Source: an uncultured Clostridia bacterium
GTDB taxonomy: Bacteria > Bacillota_A > Clostridia > Oscillospirales > Oscillospiraceae
Direction: 5' to 3'
NCBI GenBank assembly: GCA_946410505.1
Contig: CAMKAP010000157.1
Span: 1 to 5,149, forward strand
DNA: 5,149 nucleotides
A model generated the notes under the pieces. The model did no database searches and was not told the DNA's origin. It worked only from the letters and a program-made list of their open reading frames with translations. The stretch's first letter is position 1, and every line of letters starts with the position of its first letter. Both the position numbers and the translations under genes were made by a program. This document shows, in pieces, positions 1-5,149 of this stretch.

Positions 1-1873
1 CGGCGGCATCGCCCATGTGGATGAGGCCTTTATCGTCGGCTCGCTTTCCCTTGTGATCTGGACGATCACACTGCTCACCACGATCAAATACGTGCTGATC
101 GCCATGAAGGCCGACAACCACGGCGAAGGCGGCATCTTCTCCCTCTATGCGCTGGTGAAGCACTGCGGCAAGTGGCTGATCCTGCCCGCCATGCTGGGCG
201 GTGCCGCGCTGCTGGCCGACGGCGTGCTGACTCCGGCGGTCACTGTGACCACAGCGGTGGAGGGCCTGCGAAGCATGGCCGTCATGAACCGCTTCCTCGG
301 CGCCGGGCAGACCAAGGTGGTCATCATCACCCTGCTCATCATCACGGTGCTCTTTGCCATCCAGCACGCCGGCACCAGCCGCATCGGCAAGGCCTTCGGC
401 CCCGTGATGCTGCTGTGGTTCTCCTTCCTCGGCGTCACGGGCCTGCTGCACATCGGTGCTCTGCCCTCCGTGCTGCGCGCCTTCAACCCCATTCACGCCG
501 TCCAGGTGCTGCTCAGCCCCGCCAACAAGGCGGGCTTCATGATCCTGGGCAGCGTCTTTCTCGCTACCACCGGCGCGGAGGCCCTGTATTCCGACATGGG
601 TCATGTGGGCAAGGAGAATATCTACTTCAGCTGGCCCTTCGTCAAGCTTTGCCTGATCCTCAACTATCTGGGGCAGGGCGCCTGGATCATCCAAAACCAG
701 GCGGACGGCGCCCTGTACGCCATCGAGGATTTAAACCCCTTCTTCCTGATGCTGCCCATGGGTCTGCGTCCCTTTGCCGTCGTCCTCGGCGCGGCCGCGG
801 CCATTATCGCCTCCCAGGCGCTCATTACCGGCTCCTACACCCTGGTGTCCGAGGCGATCCTGCTGGATCTGCTGCCCCATCTGGAGATCCGCTACCCCGC
901 CCAGACCAAGGGTCAGCTCTACATCTCCACGGTCAACAGCATCCTATGGGTCGGCTGCAGCCTGGTGGTGCTCTACTTCCGCTCCGGTGCGCGCATGGAG
1001 TCGGCCTATGGCCTTGCCATCACCGTGACCATGCTGATGACCACGCTGCTCATCTCCGTCTATCTCAGCAAGATCCGCGGCAAAAAGATCGCCGGCGCCG
1101 GGCTGCTGCTCGTCTTCGGCGCCATCGAGGCCGTGTTCTTTCTCTCGAGCCTCGGCAAGTTTACGCACGGCGGCTATGTGACCGTCATTCTGACGCTTCT
1201 GCTGCTGGCTGTCATGGTGGTCTGGTACCGCGGCACCCAGCTGGAGCACAAATACAGCACTACGCTGAAAATTGCGGACTACGTGGAAAATCTGCGCAAG
1301 CTCCATGACGACGAGTCGCTGCCCCTGCTTGCCAACAACCTGGTATACCTGGACAGCAGCAATGACCCGGAGCTTATTGACCGCGATATCCTCTACTCCA
1401 TTCTGGACAAGGACCAGAAGCGCGCCCAGGCTTACTGGTTTGTGAGCGTGAACGTGCTCAGCGAGCCGGACACCATGCACTACCATGTGGAGACTTACGG
1501 CACCGACTTCATCTTCCGTGTAAAGCTGGATCTGGGCTTCCAGTGCTCCCCGCGCATCAACGTCTATCTGCGCCAGATCGTGCAGGATCTGCAGCAGAGC
1601 GGCGAGCTGCCGCCCCAGGACAAGAAGTATTCCATCTACGGTCCTTCCACGGTTGGCACCTTCAAGTTCTGCATCATCCACAAATCCGTCACCACCAAAA
1701 CCGAGCTCTCCACCCTGGACGAGCGCATTCTGAACACCAAGTACGTCATCCGGCGGCTGGCAGGCTCCAAGGTCACCTGGTACGGGCTGGACACCTCCTC
1801 CCTCATCACGGAGAGAGTGCCGCTTATCACCGGCGGCGGCAACGGCGGCAAGCGCATCCAGCGCATCAAATAA
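1..1873 (+). CDS. kup: Kup-family potassium transporter (5'-truncated by window edge)
   Basis: Membrane K+ uptake protein of the Kup/HAK/KUP family, probably a K+/H+ symporter. The frame is open from the left edge (first full codon at 2), so the true start is outside; the GTG at 17 is internal. The family's N-terminal GDIGTSPLY segment is missing. Numbering from codon 17, visible family motifs are KADNHGEGGI (31-40), ADGVLTPAVTVTTAVEGL (67-84), TGAEALYSDMGHVGK (185-199), LNYLGQGA (215-222), ASQALITG (265-272) and GLAITVTML (332-340). About eleven hydrophobic segments lie before residue 405, fitting the family's twelve with the first lost. Residues 405-618 form the hydrophilic cytoplasmic C-terminal domain and end in a glycine/basic tail. 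Total length would be about 660-680 residues, slightly longer than E. coli Kup (622). The stop is TAA at 1871-1873, followed by an intrinsic terminator. Family assignment is firm; ion coupling is inferred from the family. Confidence 0.95.
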   Translation, partial: GGIAHVDEAFIVGSLSLVIWTITLLTTIKYVLIAMKADNHGEGGIFSLYALVKHCGKWLILPAMLGGAALLADGVLTPAVTVTTAVEGLRSMAVMNRFLGAGQTKVVIITLLIITVLFAIQHAGTSRIGKAFGPVMLLWFSFLGVTGLLHIGALPSVLRAFNPIHAVQVLLSPANKAGFMILGSVFLATTGAEALYSDMGHVGKENIYFSWPFVKLCLILNYLGQGAWIIQNQADGALYAIEDLNPFFLMLPMGLRPFAVVLGAAAAIIASQALITGSYTLVSEAILLDLLPHLEIRYPAQTKGQLYISTVNSILWVGCSLVVLYFRSGARMESAYGLAITVTMLMTTLLISVYLSKIRGKKIAGAGLLLVFGAIEAVFFLSSLGKFTHGGYVTVILTLLLLAVMVVWYRGTQLEHKYSTTLKIADYVENLRKLHDDESLPLLANNLVYLDSSNDPELIDRDILYSILDKDQKRAQAYWFVSVNVLSEPDTMHYHVETYGTDFIFRVKLDLGFQCSPRINVYLRQIVQDLQQSGELPPQDKKYSIYGPSTVGTFKFCIIHKSVTTKTELSTLDERILNTKYVIRRLAGSKVTWYGLDTSSLITERVPLITGGGNGGKRIQRIK

Positions 1874-1885
1874 GACGAACAACTG

Positions 1886-1912
1886 AAACGGGCAGCAAGC
1901 GCTGCCCGTTTT
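1886..1912 (+). terminator. Intrinsic terminator after kup
   Basis: A perfect 11-bp inverted repeat (1886-1896 with 1901-1911, arm AAACGGGCAGC) closes an AAGC tetraloop and runs into a short TTTT (1909-1912). It lies 12 bp after the kup stop. The T tract is short, so termination may be incomplete. The next gene starts only 18 bp further on, leaving little room for its own promoter between them; that gene may depend on read-through or on a promoter inside kup. Confidence 0.8.
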
Positions 1913-1930
1913 CCGCAGAGAGGAGAGAAT

Positions 1931-2476
1931 ATGGAACAGGAAATCCTCCGTCCTTTTGAAGAGACCGACCGGGACGCCCGGGAAATCGGCAGCAAAACGC
2001 CGGTCTTTCGGAAAATGCGGCGCATACGGCAGCAGCTCGGCGAGGAGGAGTGTCTCCGGATCCTGCGTGAAGCGCCCCGCGGCGTGCTGGCCGTGCTCGG
2101 CGACGGGGATTACCCCTACGCAGTGCCGCTGGACTTTCTGTACCGGGACGGGAAGCTGTACTTCCACGGTGCGCGGCAGGGGCATAAGCTGGACGCGATC
2201 CGCCGTCACGACAAGGTGAGCTTCTGCGTCATGGACGAAGGCTTCCGCAGAGAGGGCGAGTGGGCGCTCAACATCCGCAGCGTCATTATTTTCGGCCGCA
2301 TCCGGGCCATGCGTCCCGAGGAAAACGGCATCGAAGCGCTGCTGCGCGCCTTTGGCAGCAAATACTACCCGGATGCGGAGAGCCTGGAGCGGGAGATCCG
2401 CAGCGGCATCGACCGGGTACAGATGCTGGAGCTCACAATCGAGCACATGAGTGGAAAGCTGGTCAACGAATCCTGA
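1931..2476 (+). CDS. NimA-like pyridoxamine 5'-phosphate oxidase-fold flavoprotein
   Basis: A 181-aa soluble protein of the FMN-binding split-barrel superfamily, in the NimA/5-nitroimidazole-resistance-like group common in Clostridia. Supporting motifs are MRRIRQQLGEEECLRIL (29-45), GVLAVLGDGDYPYAVPLDFLY (51-71, the flavin-barrel strand pair), YFHGARQGHKLDAIRRHDKVSFCV (77-100), NIRSVIIFGRIR (114-125) and the terminal IEHMSGK (170-176). Such proteins usually bind FMN or a related cofactor and are often annotated as reductases; the substrate here is unknown, and nitroimidazole resistance should not be assumed. The ATG at 1931 is chosen because AGGAG sits at 1921-1925 with a 5-nt spacer. This start gives about 28 residues before the MRRIRQQL block with which many relatives nearly begin. 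The ATG opening that block has no good ribosome binding site. It is same-strand with kup, but the kup terminator separates them. Confidence 0.88.
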   Translation: MEQEILRPFEETDRDAREIGSKTPVFRKMRRIRQQLGEEECLRILREAPRGVLAVLGDGDYPYAVPLDFLYRDGKLYFHGARQGHKLDAIRRHDKVSFCVMDEGFRREGEWALNIRSVIIFGRIRAMRPEENGIEALLRAFGSKYYPDAESLEREIRSGIDRVQMLELTIEHMSGKLVNES

Positions 2477-2491
2477 TGGGCTGATGATGTA

Positions 2492-2525
2492 AAAAAGGGA
2501 AAGTTCGGAGGAGCTTTCCCTTTTT
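2492..2525. terminator. Bidirectional intrinsic terminator between convergent genes
   Basis: A 12-bp perfect arm (2492-2503 with 2514-2525, AAAAAGGGAAAG/CTTTCCCTTTTT) continues inward through a G-U, an A-U and a C-G pair to a GGAG tetraloop (2507-2510), 15 bp in all. The A tract on one side and T tract on the other give a U-run to transcripts from both directions. It lies 15 bp after the stop of the flavoprotein gene and 8 bp after the stop of the convergent ylmC-like gene, so it can serve both. Confidence 0.9.
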
Positions 2526-2533
2526 CTTCTGTA

Positions 2534-2818
2534 TCAGAAGCCCGGGAAGCTCCTCCGGGGCCGCTTGCGGCGCGGCAGCTCCTCCTTGGCGTCGATCAGG
2601 ATGATGTCCCCGCCGATGCGCGCAATGCAGGACCAGGGCAGCACATAATCGTCCTCCCGGCCCAGCAGCCCGAAGAGCTTGGAGCGTCCCGGCGTGATGA
2701 GCGACAGGAGCCGCCCCTCCGCGTGGTCCAGCTCCGCATCGCAGACATAGCCCAGGCGGTAGCCCGAGTGGATGTCGATGACCTCCTTGTAGCGAAGCTC
2801 CGAAAAACAGCCGATCAA
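2534..2818 (-). CDS. PRC-barrel protein of the YlmC/YmxH sporulation family
   Basis: A 94-aa protein with one PRC-barrel-like domain. Family features are the opening CFSELRYKEVIDIHSGYRLG (4-23), the acidic turn CDAELDHAEGRLLSLITPG (26-44), FGLLGREDDYVLPW (49-62) and IARIGGDIILID (65-76), which match the YlmC/YmxH pattern of SEL, KEV/I, a PW-x2-I strand and IG-x-D-x-IL. The last 15 residues form a basic tail (RRKRPRRS). YlmC/YmxH proteins are found in endospore formers and named as sporulation proteins, but their molecular role is poorly defined. The start is TTG at 2818-2816: an in-frame stop lies at 2827-2825 and no in-frame ATG or GTG falls between. It is supported by a GAGGTGAT ribosome binding site. 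The stop TGA is 8 bp before the shared terminator. It is same-strand with noc, about 200 bp downstream. No cysteine or catalytic motif suggests enzymatic activity. Confidence 0.85.
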   Translation of the reverse strand: MIGCFSELRYKEVIDIHSGYRLGYVCDAELDHAEGRLLSLITPGRSKLFGLLGREDDYVLPWSCIARIGGDIILIDAKEELPRRKRPRRSFPGF

Positions 2819-2823
2819 AACGC

Positions 2824-2831
2824 ATCACCTC
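2824..2831 (-). promoter_or_regulatory. Ribosome binding site fixing the TTG start of the ylmC-like gene
   Basis: GAGGTGAT on the minus strand is an eight-base match to the anti-Shine-Dalgarno complement and ends 5 nt before the TTG at 2818. It includes an out-of-frame ATG (2825-2823) that should not be used for annotation, because that frame shows no family similarity. Confidence 0.75.
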
Positions 2832-3021
2832 TCTGGATTCTACGACGCGCGCGCCGGTTTTATGTCGGATTTTTATACTACTTTCTAATAAGAAGCTTTA
2901 AAAAGGATTGCGAGACAGAATTGCGCCAGATGAGGCGAAGACCGCCGAGCATAATGGAGATATATGGTCAAGGGCTTCAACGAAGTATGGCACAATTCTG
3001 GCCGCAAGGCTTTAAAGATTT
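2826..3021. other. Intergenic region between noc and the ylmC-like gene
   Basis: About 195 bp without a convincing gene. It is visibly richer in A and T (especially 2856-2905) than the flanking genes. It holds the nested inverted-repeat element described separately (2896-3017). Reading on the minus strand toward the ylmC-like gene, TATAAA at 2877-2872 could be a sigma-A -10 box, but the best -35 at suitable spacing (TTAAAG, 2901-2896) is poor, so a promoter there is only a suggestion. A short alternating CG run lies at 2844-2852. Confidence 0.5.
2896..3017. repeat. Nested inverted-repeat element: candidate structured RNA, 3'-UTR or small palindromic repeat
   Basis: The two halves pair in register as successive helices. 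These are CTTTAAA 2896-2902 with TTTAAAG 3011-3017; TTGCG 2908-2912 with CGCAA 3003-3007; AGAATTG 2917-2923 with CAATTCT 2993-2999; and, after one C/A mismatch, GCC 2925-2927 with GGC 2989-2991. Small internal loops (5/3 and 4/3 nt) separate them. The enclosed 61 nt contain two further hairpins, GGCG/CGCC (2934-2946) and CTTC/GAAG (2975-2985), giving a branched shape. The pairs are all Watson-Crick, so the fold works on either strand and does not set orientation. It begins 4 bp past the noc stop on the minus strand, so as RNA it would lie in the noc 3' end; there the far side ends in TCCTTTTT, which could help termination. I do not recognise a known RNA family. Pairing is seen; function is inferred. 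Confidence 0.55.
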
Positions 3022-3849
3022 CTATTTGAAAGTAGTATTAGATTTGGGGATGGAGATGGTGAGGATCAGCGCCTCTTCGGTCTCCTCCCGGTGCATGCCG
3101 GCGGCGATCCCGCCCTGCTTCATCAGATCCAGCGAGTGGCTGAGGCTGTTGAGAAACACGCGCACGTCCTTCATCACAAAGCTGCGCCGGATCTCCGGGC
3201 GGCGCGGCGGCTCCGGGGAGGCCAGCAGTGCGTCTACATAGGCGTCCGTGGCCGCCACGGTCAGGTCCTTTTCCAGAATATGCGCCAGGGCAGCCCGCTG
3301 CTGCTCCGCGTCCCCCAGGCGCAGCAGCGCCCGCCCGTGCCGCTCGCTGAGCCCGTTTTCCCGCAGGGCCTCGAGCACGTCCTCCGGCAGCTTCAAGAGC
3401 CGCAGCTTATTGGCCACCGCGGACTGGGAGCGCCCGATCTTCCGGGCCGCCTCCTCCTGGCTGATTCCGAACATGCCGATGAGCTGCTGCAGGCCCCGCG
3501 CCTCCTCCAGAAAGTCCAGGTCCTTGCGCTGCAGATTCTCCACCAGGGCCAGCAGCCCCGCATCCTCCAGATTCACATCCACGATCATGCATGGCACCTC
3601 CCGCAGCCCGGCCAGCTTCGCCGCCCGCAGCCTTCGCTCACCCGCCACCAGTTCGTATTTTCCGCCCCGCAGCCGTACCGTCAGCGGGTGCAGGACTCCA
3701 TAGCTGCGGATGCTCGCGCTCAGCTCCCGCAGGGATTCCTCGTCAAAGATTTTGCGCGGCTGGGCGGGATTGGGTGCAATGTCGTCCACGCGCAGGTACA
3801 AAAGCCCGCTGCGCCGCAGCGTCGGCCTTGTCCGCATTGTCTGGATCAT
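3022..3849 (-). CDS. noc: ParB-superfamily nucleoid occlusion protein Noc
   Basis: A 275-aa ParB/Noc-type CTP-dependent DNA-binding clamp, expected to bind the nucleoid and help keep division away from unsegregated DNA. The N-terminal ParB domain has NPAQPRKIF (27-35), the CTP-binding GERRLRAAKLAGL (70-82) and ENLQR (104-108). A helix-turn-helix spans about 128-172 (ISQEEAARKIGRSQSAVANKLRLL onward). Within it, Q142, K148, K153 and R170 have the same spacing as the four residues that distinguish Noc (Q/K/K/R) from ParB/Spo0J (R/T/A/G), so preference for a Noc site rather than parS is predicted. The C-terminal part (RRSFVMKDVRVFLNSLSHSL to LTISIPK) aligns with the end of B. subtilis Noc. The ATG at 3849 is fixed by AAGGAGG with a 7-nt spacer. 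Only 17 residues precede the first strand, with no clear copy of the Noc membrane-binding helix. No parA, parB or rsmG is visible beside it. Confidence 0.88.
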   Translation of the reverse strand: MIQTMRTRPTLRRSGLLYLRVDDIAPNPAQPRKIFDEESLRELSASIRSYGVLHPLTVRLRGGKYELVAGERRLRAAKLAGLREVPCMIVDVNLEDAGLLALVENLQRKDLDFLEEARGLQQLIGMFGISQEEAARKIGRSQSAVANKLRLLKLPEDVLEALRENGLSERHGRALLRLGDAEQQRAALAHILEKDLTVAATDAYVDALLASPEPPRRPEIRRSFVMKDVRVFLNSLSHSLDLMKQGGIAAGMHREETEEALILTISIPKSNTTFK

Positions 3850-3856
3850 TTTCCGG

Positions 3857-3863
3857 CCTCCTT
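3857..3863 (-). promoter_or_regulatory. Ribosome binding site fixing the noc start
   Basis: AAGGAGG on the minus strand, 7 nt before the ATG at 3849-3847. It decides against the internal ATG four codons later and against any longer N-terminus. Confidence 0.85.
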
Positions 3864-3886
3864 GGTTTATCTTGTATTTTCTGGCT

Positions 3887-3906
3887 CAAGATTACACCAC
3901 ATCTTG
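3887..3906. promoter_or_regulatory. Candidate operator dyad CAAGAT-N8-ATCTTG
   Basis: A perfect 6-bp inverted repeat (3887-3892 and 3901-3906) with an 8-bp spacer lies in the divergent noc/azlC gap. A third copy of ATCTTG (as ATCTTGT, also present at 3901-3907) is at 3869-3875. The dyad covers the candidate noc -10 and lies upstream of the azlC -35, where a shared regulator could act on both. No regulator gene is present in the window to suggest which. Confidence 0.35.
3891..3899 (-). promoter_or_regulatory. noc: Candidate extended -10 promoter for noc
   Basis: On the minus strand TGG followed by TGTAAT forms an extended -10 element (TG-N-TATAAT type, five of six matches in the hexamer). No good -35 hexamer lies at 15-19 bp, which extended -10 promoters tolerate. 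It would start transcription roughly 35 nt before the noc ATG. It is overlapped by the CAAGAT/ATCTTG dyad at 3887-3906. Confidence 0.35.
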
Positions 3907-3941
3907 TGAAAAAGGCGGCGAAAGTGAGCGGAGGCTCCCAG

Positions 3942-3970
3942 TTGACAGCGGGCGAAAACAGGCGTATGAT
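3942..3970 (+). promoter_or_regulatory. Sigma-A promoter for azlCD
   Basis: TTGACA at 3942-3947 (perfect -35), a 17-bp spacer, and TATGAT at 3965-3970 (five of six for the -10). Transcription should begin near 3977, giving a leader of about 30 nt. That is too short for a T-box or other riboswitch, so control is more likely by a DNA-binding regulator. Confidence 0.85.
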
Positions 3971-4008
3971 AGCTGGCAATAACAGGAAAAGGAAGGAGTG
4001 GGCGGAGC

Positions 4009-4770
4009 GTGACAGAAAAAAACCGGGCGCTGTTTACCGCGGGCGTACGCGCGGGGCTGCCGATCATGCTGGGCTATGTGCCCATCGGGATCGCCTTCGC
4101 GGTGATGGCGCGGCAGGCAGGCCTGAGCGTCGGGCAGACCTGCCTCATGTCGCTGACGGTCTACGCCGGGGCCAGCCAGATGATGGCGGCAGGTATGCTG
4201 GCACATCACGGGGCCTTTCTGGCCATTGTACTGGCCACCTTTGTGCTGAACCTGCGGCACATCATCATGTCCACCTGTGTGATGCACCGGATGGAGCCTG
4301 CGCCTCTTTCCCTGCGGCTTCTGGCCGCCTTCGGCGTGACGGACGAGAGCTTCGCCCTCTTCACCACCGGCACGGGCAAGAGCCGCAGCGTGTTCTTCTT
4401 CCTCGGCATCCACATCGCCATCTACCTGAGCTGGAACCTGGGGACGCTGCTGGGGGCTCTGGCCATGGATCTGCTGCCGCCGATCCTGACGGCGAGCCTG
4501 GGGACGCTGCTGGGGGCTCTGGCCATGGATCTGCTGCCGCCGATCCTGACGGCGAGCCTGGGTGTCTCCCTCTATGCCATGTTTGTGAGCATCCTCATGC
4601 CGGATCTGCCGGGAAACGGAAAGCTCGCGCTGCTGGTGCTGCTGACGGCTGTGTGCAGCACGCTTTTCAGCCGGGTGATGGCCTCCTCCTGGGCGCTGAT
4701 CGTCTCCACCCTGCTGTGCGCCTTTGCGGGAAGCTTCTTTGTTGAGCTGAAGGAGGAAGCCGATGTCTGA
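4009..4770 (+). CDS. azlC: Branched-chain amino acid exporter large subunit AzlC, with internal 20-residue duplication
   Basis: Integral membrane subunit of the AzlCD (YgaZH-type) exporter for branched-chain amino acids, named for 4-azaleucine resistance in B. subtilis. Family motifs are GLPIMLGYVPIGIAFAVMA (16-34), SLTVYAGASQMMAAGML (48-64), LNLRHIIMS (80-88), the FGVTDESFAL stretch (108-117) and HIAIYLSWNLGT (135-146). The start is GTG at 4009, with AAGGAG at 3993-3998 (10-nt spacer). Length is 253 aa; without the duplication it would be 233, close to the family norm. Residues 145-164 and 165-184 are identical (GTLLGALAMDLLPPILTASL) because 60 bp are exactly repeated. The repeated segment is hydrophobic and about one membrane span long, so downstream topology may be altered and function is uncertain, although the frame stays open to the end. 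The stop overlaps azlD by 8 bp. AzlC identity is firm; substrate is from the family. Confidence 0.92.
   Translation: MTEKNRALFTAGVRAGLPIMLGYVPIGIAFAVMARQAGLSVGQTCLMSLTVYAGASQMMAAGMLAHHGAFLAIVLATFVLNLRHIIMSTCVMHRMEPAPLSLRLLAAFGVTDESFALFTTGTGKSRSVFFFLGIHIAIYLSWNLGTLLGALAMDLLPPILTASLGTLLGALAMDLLPPILTASLGVSLYAMFVSILMPDLPGNGKLALLVLLTAVCSTLFSRVMASSWALIVSTLLCAFAGSFFVELKEEADV
4437..4562 (+). repeat. Perfect 60-bp tandem duplication inside azlC
   Basis: Positions 4441-4500 and 4501-4560 are identical base for base. The identity extends 4 bp left and 2 bp right, so CCTGGG occurs at 4437-4442, 4497-4502 and 4557-4562. That 6-bp microhomology at the boundaries is what replication slippage between two CCTGGG copies 60 bp apart would leave. 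Because 60 is a multiple of three the reading frame is kept. Absence of any difference, even at third positions, points to a recent event or an assembly artefact. Confidence 0.97.
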
Positions 4771-5071
4771 CACCATGATCGTTCTCCTTTTTCTCGCCAT
4801 GGCGCTGGTGACCTATATCCCGCGCCTGCTGCCCTTTGTGCTGGTGGACCGGCTGCGCTTTTCCCCCAGGATGGAGCGTTTTCTCCGGCTGATTCCCTAT
4901 ACGGCCATGGCGGCGCTGATTTTCCCGGGCATTCTGAGCGTGGACACAGGGCGGCCATGGGTGGGGCTGCTGGGCGGGGCCGCAGCGGCACTGCTCGCGC
5001 TGCGAAAGCGCTCCGCGATCCTCTGCGTCCTGGCCGCCATCGCCGTGGTCTTCATTTTGCAGTTTGTGTAA
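4763..5071 (+). CDS. azlD: Branched-chain amino acid exporter small subunit AzlD
   Basis: A 102-aa small membrane subunit that partners AzlC. Typical AzlD features are the N-terminal segment MIVLLFLAMALVTYIPRLLPFVL (5-27) with the TYIPR motif, the RFSPRMERFLRLIPYTAMAALIFPG stretch (32-56), and two further hydrophobic segments (about 66-80 and 85-101), giving three or four membrane spans. The ATG at 4763 has AAGGAGG at 4750-4756 with a 6-nt spacer, both inside the end of azlC; the 8-bp overlap indicates translational coupling and a matched complex. The stop TAA is at 5069-5071. No terminator is visible in the 24 bp before the insertion-sequence end, so the native downstream region may have been displaced. 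Confidence 0.92.
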   Translation: MSDTMIVLLFLAMALVTYIPRLLPFVLVDRLRFSPRMERFLRLIPYTAMAALIFPGILSVDTGRPWVGLLGGAAAALLALRKRSAILCVLAAIAVVFILQFV

Positions 5072-5095
5072 TATAACAGATCGCCGCGCCGATTA

Positions 5096-5149
5096 TGAAG
5101 TGAACCCCAAAAGTTAGACATTAATTGAATTAGGCGACCTGAAGGGTCT
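5096..5149. mobile_element. End of an IS3-family-like insertion sequence (cut by window edge)
   Basis: The stretch TGAACCCCAAAAGTTAGACA (5101-5120) resembles the terminal inverted repeats of IS3-family elements (IS150-like group: 5'-TG followed by a CCCC-AAAA-GTTAGAC core). The outer boundary could be TG at 5096 or TG at 5101; I favour 5096, because relatives often have a few bases before the CCCC. The element continues to the right beyond the window. Only about 50 bp are present and no transposase is readable, so whether this is the left or right end is unresolved. One minus-strand frame runs from the window edge to a TAA at 5116-5114 inside the repeat, which could be the tail of a transposase gene. 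Confidence 0.6.

Follow-up and report, generated by a model that had tools for sequence, protein, structure and literature searches.

A recent-looking, in-frame 60-bp tandem duplication in the azlC gene of an uncultured Clostridia bacterium

The azlCD gene pair and its 60-bp array

The window, by which we mean the whole stretch of DNA analysed (5,149 nucleotides), carries near one end two overlapping genes on the plus strand, and the first of these contains a perfect tandem repeat. The features at this locus are the following.

4009 to 4770, plus strand: azlC, two-copy allele, 253 amino acids, GTG start (open reading frame; PF03591, E 1.1e-41)
4437 to 4496, plus strand: repeat copy 1, residues 144-163, LGTLLGALAMDLLPPILTAS, placed by BLAST
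4497 to 4556, plus strand: repeat copy 2, residues 164-183, the same as copy 1
4557 to 4562, plus strand: third CCTGGG, which together with 4437-4442 and 4497-4502 marks a 6-bp microhomology
4477 to 4536, plus strand: predicted new chimeric hydrophobic segment, codons 157-176 (AlphaFold2 helix 158-175, low confidence; hydropathy 1.69 at residues 155-173)
4763 to 5071, plus strand: azlD, partner subunit, 102 amino acids, intact (open reading frame; PF05437, E 1.1e-21)

The two-copy protein scored 142.9 bits against PF03591 (AzlC), for which the curated cut-off is 32.1, and the match spans residues 18-156, so that its end falls inside copy 1. The azlD product matched PF05437 with 77.3 bits, and the start of azlD overlaps the end of azlC by 8 nt. 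Despite the array, the azlC reading frame is open throughout, and the downstream azlD is intact. By these matches the pair appears to encode AzlC and AzlD family members, for which branched-chain amino acid (BCAA) export would be the function by family assignment; we take the AzlCD exporters of BCAAs to be linked to YgaZH, and YgaZ to be the E. coli homologue of AzlC. The sequence family, the length minus the repeat and the adjoining, overlapping azlD are all as in the AzlC/YgaZ family (PF03591 with PF05437), whereas the window protein has 20 extra residues after one-copy residue 143, which are present in no other examined member.

The array is a perfect period-60 run of 126 nt (4437-4562; TRF matches 100%, score 252), in which 4437-4496 and 4497-4556 are identical at every base and are followed immediately by CCTGGG at 4557-4562. 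Hence, the original prediction of two identical 60-bp blocks with three copies of CCTGGG, lying in frame in azlC, is exact, and so is its claim that the same 20 residues are encoded twice (residues 144-163 equal residues 164-183). The gene has CCTGGG at 4437, 4497 and 4557, plus one outside the array at 4688. A scan for perfect tandem pairs with units of 15-400 bp gave no second case in 225,665 bases, which comprise the window and 45 loci with an AzlC open reading frame, some of these loci being one place fetched repeatedly. A chance origin of the 60-bp array is excluded.

One-copy relatives and the origin of the second copy

A metagenomic protein of 233 residues, P0003, for which a single 1864-base contig is the source, matches the window protein residue for residue, but has the 20-residue unit only once. 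A search for AzlC homologues, in which the 7995 candidates sharing most words were scored, gave 1650 matches with an E-value of 0.001 or less, and the 120 best of them, including the window's own protein, were compared. The other 119 are 222-251 amino acids long, none reaching 253, and 25 of the 32 best-scoring other matches listed (P0003-P0034) have exactly 233, in line with the claim that the one-copy length is typical of the family. Identity to the window protein was at most 92% among the others in an alignment of 34 sequences, made up of the window protein and 33 of the 119.

Aligning AzlC homologues to P0003, a check proposed together with the original prediction, showed the second copy neither in the other 119 homologues listed nor in the 45 loci, which represent at most 40 distinct places (L001/L013/L017, L002/L014, L003/L016 and L011/L015 are same-place sets). 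Among the 120 listed proteins and the 45 loci, an insertion of at least four residues after P0003 residue 143 occurs in the window protein only, and all other insertions of this size in homologues lie after residue 198 or later. We also searched about 5.8 billion proteins with the repeat region (query residues 141-186, including the junction; 3687 candidates scored). The window's own protein scored 75 bits, and the 39 other matches, all of 223-241 amino acids and none in the two-copy form, scored far lower, at 37-46 bits. Among 199 whole genomes related to G001, an AzlC match with an E-value of at most 0.001 was present in 107, and the close comparison covered those fetched as loci. Searching the 102 genomes around G001 at genus level, and likewise the 102 around G002, gave the same eight genomes with a match at E 1e-60 or below, of which G001 and G002 alone showed at least 90% identity.

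The second copy is in none of the relatives seen, and on the homologues examined (the 120 best of 1650 matches, and the repeat-region matches among 3687 scored candidates) an old, shared structure is rejected. Together with the identical one-copy P0003, its absence from the other examined proteins makes the two-copy azlC look like a recent, strain-level event, which agrees with the recent origin originally claimed.

The two-copy form is known from a single contig, and the protein is the single member of its cluster; this, and the existence of the residue-identical P0003, would also fit a true genome with one copy, in which a chimeric read or a graph error made the second. We consider such an assembly or library artefact unlikely. 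At the internal junction, the left flank of one CCTGGG meets the right flank of the other. Several of the bases that follow CCTGGG are different at the right native edge, as are several of those that precede it at the left native edge, so that a single base error cannot create the junction. In addition, assemblers should collapse such arrays rather than invent them: the one-copy path is contained in the two-copy graph (words up to 66), which makes collapse likelier than invention.

The array carries the signature of a duplication, namely, identical head-to-tail 60-bp copies bounded by a 6-bp microhomology. Of 131,750 position-period combinations elsewhere in the window (every third period from 30 to 120, over positions 51-4300), 0.62% have a microhomology of at least 6 nt, and against this background slippage or a microhomology-mediated event is likelier than a random junction. 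The array points to a one-copy ancestor with CCTGGG at both edges, 60 bp apart, between which replication slippage or microhomology-mediated repair would have given rise to the in-frame tandem duplication. The closest genomes are metagenome-assembled (Ruminococcaceae bacterium; uncultured Clostridia bacterium). In the two closest with DNA, L001 and L002, the single 60-bp unit differs from that of the window at 3 and 1 of 60 bases, respectively, and the hexamers at the array edges are TCTGGG and CCTTGG in L001 and CCTGGG and CCTTGG in L002. Thus, L002 keeps the first CCTGGG only and L001 neither, and since the intact pair is absent from both, it is the window alone that points to an ancestral pair. 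In the five coding stretches of the window that were counted, each kb contains about 35-54 direct repeats of 6 nt or more spaced 30-120 bp apart; as repeats of that size are common, the CCTGGG pair is no unusual hot spot.

The original study of reversible microhomology-mediated tandem duplications (MTDs) in ssp1 is said to be that of Dan et al. 2021. Such reversible MTDs in fission yeast ssp1 are reviewed in PMC13207564, and those described there are like the azlC array in being local coding duplications with short microhomology edges and in the instability to be expected; the azlC case differs in that it is bacterial, in frame and creates no stop codon, and its instability is an expectation only. 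A comparison of complete bacterial genomes attributed some of the small variable segments with short repeats at their ends to replication slippage (PMC2884548). Like these intragenic segments, the azlC array is a short difference within a gene, with a repeat of at least 5 bp at its edges, whereas that paper stresses short-homology deletions in aligned complete genomes, and the azlC case is a duplication set against one identical protein. In the open-licence literature, the titles and abstract openings of work naming AzlC and AzlD contained no azlC duplication, and in partial texts on tandem duplications, reversibility and YgaZH we recognised no bacterial case of just this sort.

Predicted topology, exporter function and reversibility

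In the AlphaFold2 model of the one-copy P0003, the C-terminal helices lie at residues 128-155, 158-175, 183-200 and 206-224 (mean pLDDT 72.0; below 50 at 170-183), and in that of the two-copy form at 128-155, 158-175, 178-195, 203-220 and 226-242 (mean pLDDT 63.8; below 50 at 159-203). The two-copy model has one helix more (helix 158-175 of the one-copy model gives way to a pair at 158-175 and 178-195), and a hydropathy scan (19-residue mean of at least 1.6) likewise gave five segments in the one-copy and six in the two-copy form. By prediction, the repeat unit (residues 144-163) runs from the end of one helix through a turn into the beginning of the following helix, so its duplication would create one new chimeric segment and leave the native helices unbroken. 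This segment (residues 157-176) is the start of one-copy helix 158-175 fused to the end of helix 128-155; its mean hydropathy is 1.435, and it contains one Asp and two Pro. The duplication, therefore, probably adds one hydrophobic helix of about 20 residues, and as a single added crossing is an odd number, the last three AzlC helices would be inverted.

Both models are weak in the repeat region, so the extra membrane crossing is a prediction only. A sequence search of solved structures found no AzlC relative (the sole match at E 1 or better was an aminotransferase, E 0.11), and Foldseek with the one-copy model, which is of moderate quality, found no match at E 0.001 or better; in view of this, the topology is drawn from prediction throughout. 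Of the membrane-span-sized repeat originally described, what is retained, at low confidence, is the addition of one span-sized hydrophobic segment; the unit itself is no span. Similarly, predicting the topology of both forms, as had been proposed, yielded the extra helix in the two-copy model, with a low pLDDT at the repeat.

Over codons 1-143, we obtained a dN of 0.042 and a dS of 0.41 against L001 (dN/dS about 0.10), and a dN of 0.061 and a dS of 0.39 against L002 (dN/dS about 0.16), ratios that indicate that azlC was under purifying selection before the duplication event. This selection and the tight family length make loss of function the likeliest effect of the second copy. Hence, we hold it likely, with good though not full confidence, that a spontaneous 60-bp duplication, through slippage or repair at CCTGGG, inserted one chimeric hydrophobic helix between two native AzlC helices, which would leave the last three helices inverted in the membrane or misfolded and the AzlCD exporter of the carrier cells probably non-functional. 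The two-copy duplication most likely inactivates the exporter, and the allele, which may be neutral, deleterious or locally tolerated, is most likely transient and would be prone to revert to one copy. Regarding YgaZ, PMC13392391 describes an evolved valine producer that had acquired a frameshift in an added copy of ygaZ; when the frameshift was reverted, the valine titre fell by nearly half, and the deletion of ygaZH did not lower valine production. Thus, a loss of YgaZ can be tolerable or even favoured in culture.

Alternatively, the extra segment could be accommodated, as a re-entrant stretch or outside the bilayer, and export could persist, perhaps with a changed use of substrate or partner. 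The moderate hydrophobicity of the inserted segment, with its Asp and two Pro, is in keeping with this, the native predicted helices are all intact in the sequence, and the in-frame duplication and intact azlD are equally expected of a functional variant. However, no examined homologue has an insertion of at least four residues at that place, and unit residues G169, A170, D174 and P177, which are invariant in the 34-sequence alignment, are now doubled, so that we judge a tolerated exporter to be improbable.

Inactivation by an accidental duplication has also to be set against the on/off or contingency-type switch suggested in the original prediction; as an evolved form of bet-hedging, copy slippage would then switch AzlC between active and inactive states. 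The perfect 66-bp overlapping repeat should revert readily, and the databases contain both one-copy and two-copy forms. However, ready reversion is what any tandem duplication would be expected to show, and it does not indicate an evolved switch. The array has two copies only, and because its 60-bp period is a multiple of three, the loss or gain of a unit leaves the frame unshifted; lying inside the open reading frame, the unit shifts neither frame nor promoter by its copy number. The tract is not kept in relatives (0 of 119 listed homologues, 0 of 45 loci and 0 of the 39 others from the repeat-region search), the CCTGGG pair is absent from both closest genomes, and comparable direct repeats are common across the coding stretches of the window. 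Phase-variable repeat tracts, as characterised in PMC11868660, occupy sites that selection has shaped and mutate at rates typically 100-10,000 times the basal one. The azlC array is like those loci in being a tandem repeat within a membrane-protein gene, and differs in having no short-unit tract, frame shift or conservation, hypermutability being a feature of the loci described there. We, therefore, regard an evolved switch as very improbable and did not uphold this part of the original prediction: the azlC duplication is an ordinary mutation, a fresh instance of a known mutation type, although the two-copy array may well revert to one copy.

Equally far-fetched in our estimation is a selected, reversible AzlCD off-allele, with two-copy cells rising where BCAA export is costly and slippage restoring the one-copy form. 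If this were true, one- and two-copy cells would coexist in one strain, and membrane topology, not frame, would switch; both alleles in one population would amount to a fast reversible topology variation in a bacterium. Unless the alleles form such a stable mixture, the interest of the case is low, and the view of the AzlCD family is unchanged by it. Here a single event has altered a membrane protein for which every residue of the one-copy form is known, and the duplication offers a natural test of the effect of an inserted helix on an exporter.

Neighbouring features of the window

With Rfam gathering thresholds, the window gave no match, and an RNA element was rejected on this basis. A viral origin of the stretch was likewise rejected, since six peptide patterns found no AzlC relative in viral contigs and the 30-base junction pattern had no exact match there.

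On the minus strand, a gene for a PRC-barrel protein and a ParB-like gene (HTH_ParB, ParB_N) adjoin azlCD at 2534-3849, and the DNA of L001 and L002 is collinear across most of this interval. A search with the ParB-like protein returned at least 120 relatives. The stop codon of this gene (3022-3849, minus strand) lies inside a MITE-like insertion at 2873-3040, which has 28-nt imperfect inverted ends (2875-2902 and 3011-3038, 86% complementary) and TTA at both sides (2873-2875 and 3038-3040); L001 has uninterrupted flanks, with CTG at the corresponding site. Similar DNA was found at three places in G001 and at one in G067, among five genomes searched. The contig ends inside a dispersed repeat (5082-5149), which we take to resemble the end of an IS3-family element; in a search of three genomes, five places in G002 matched parts of it at 90-96% identity.
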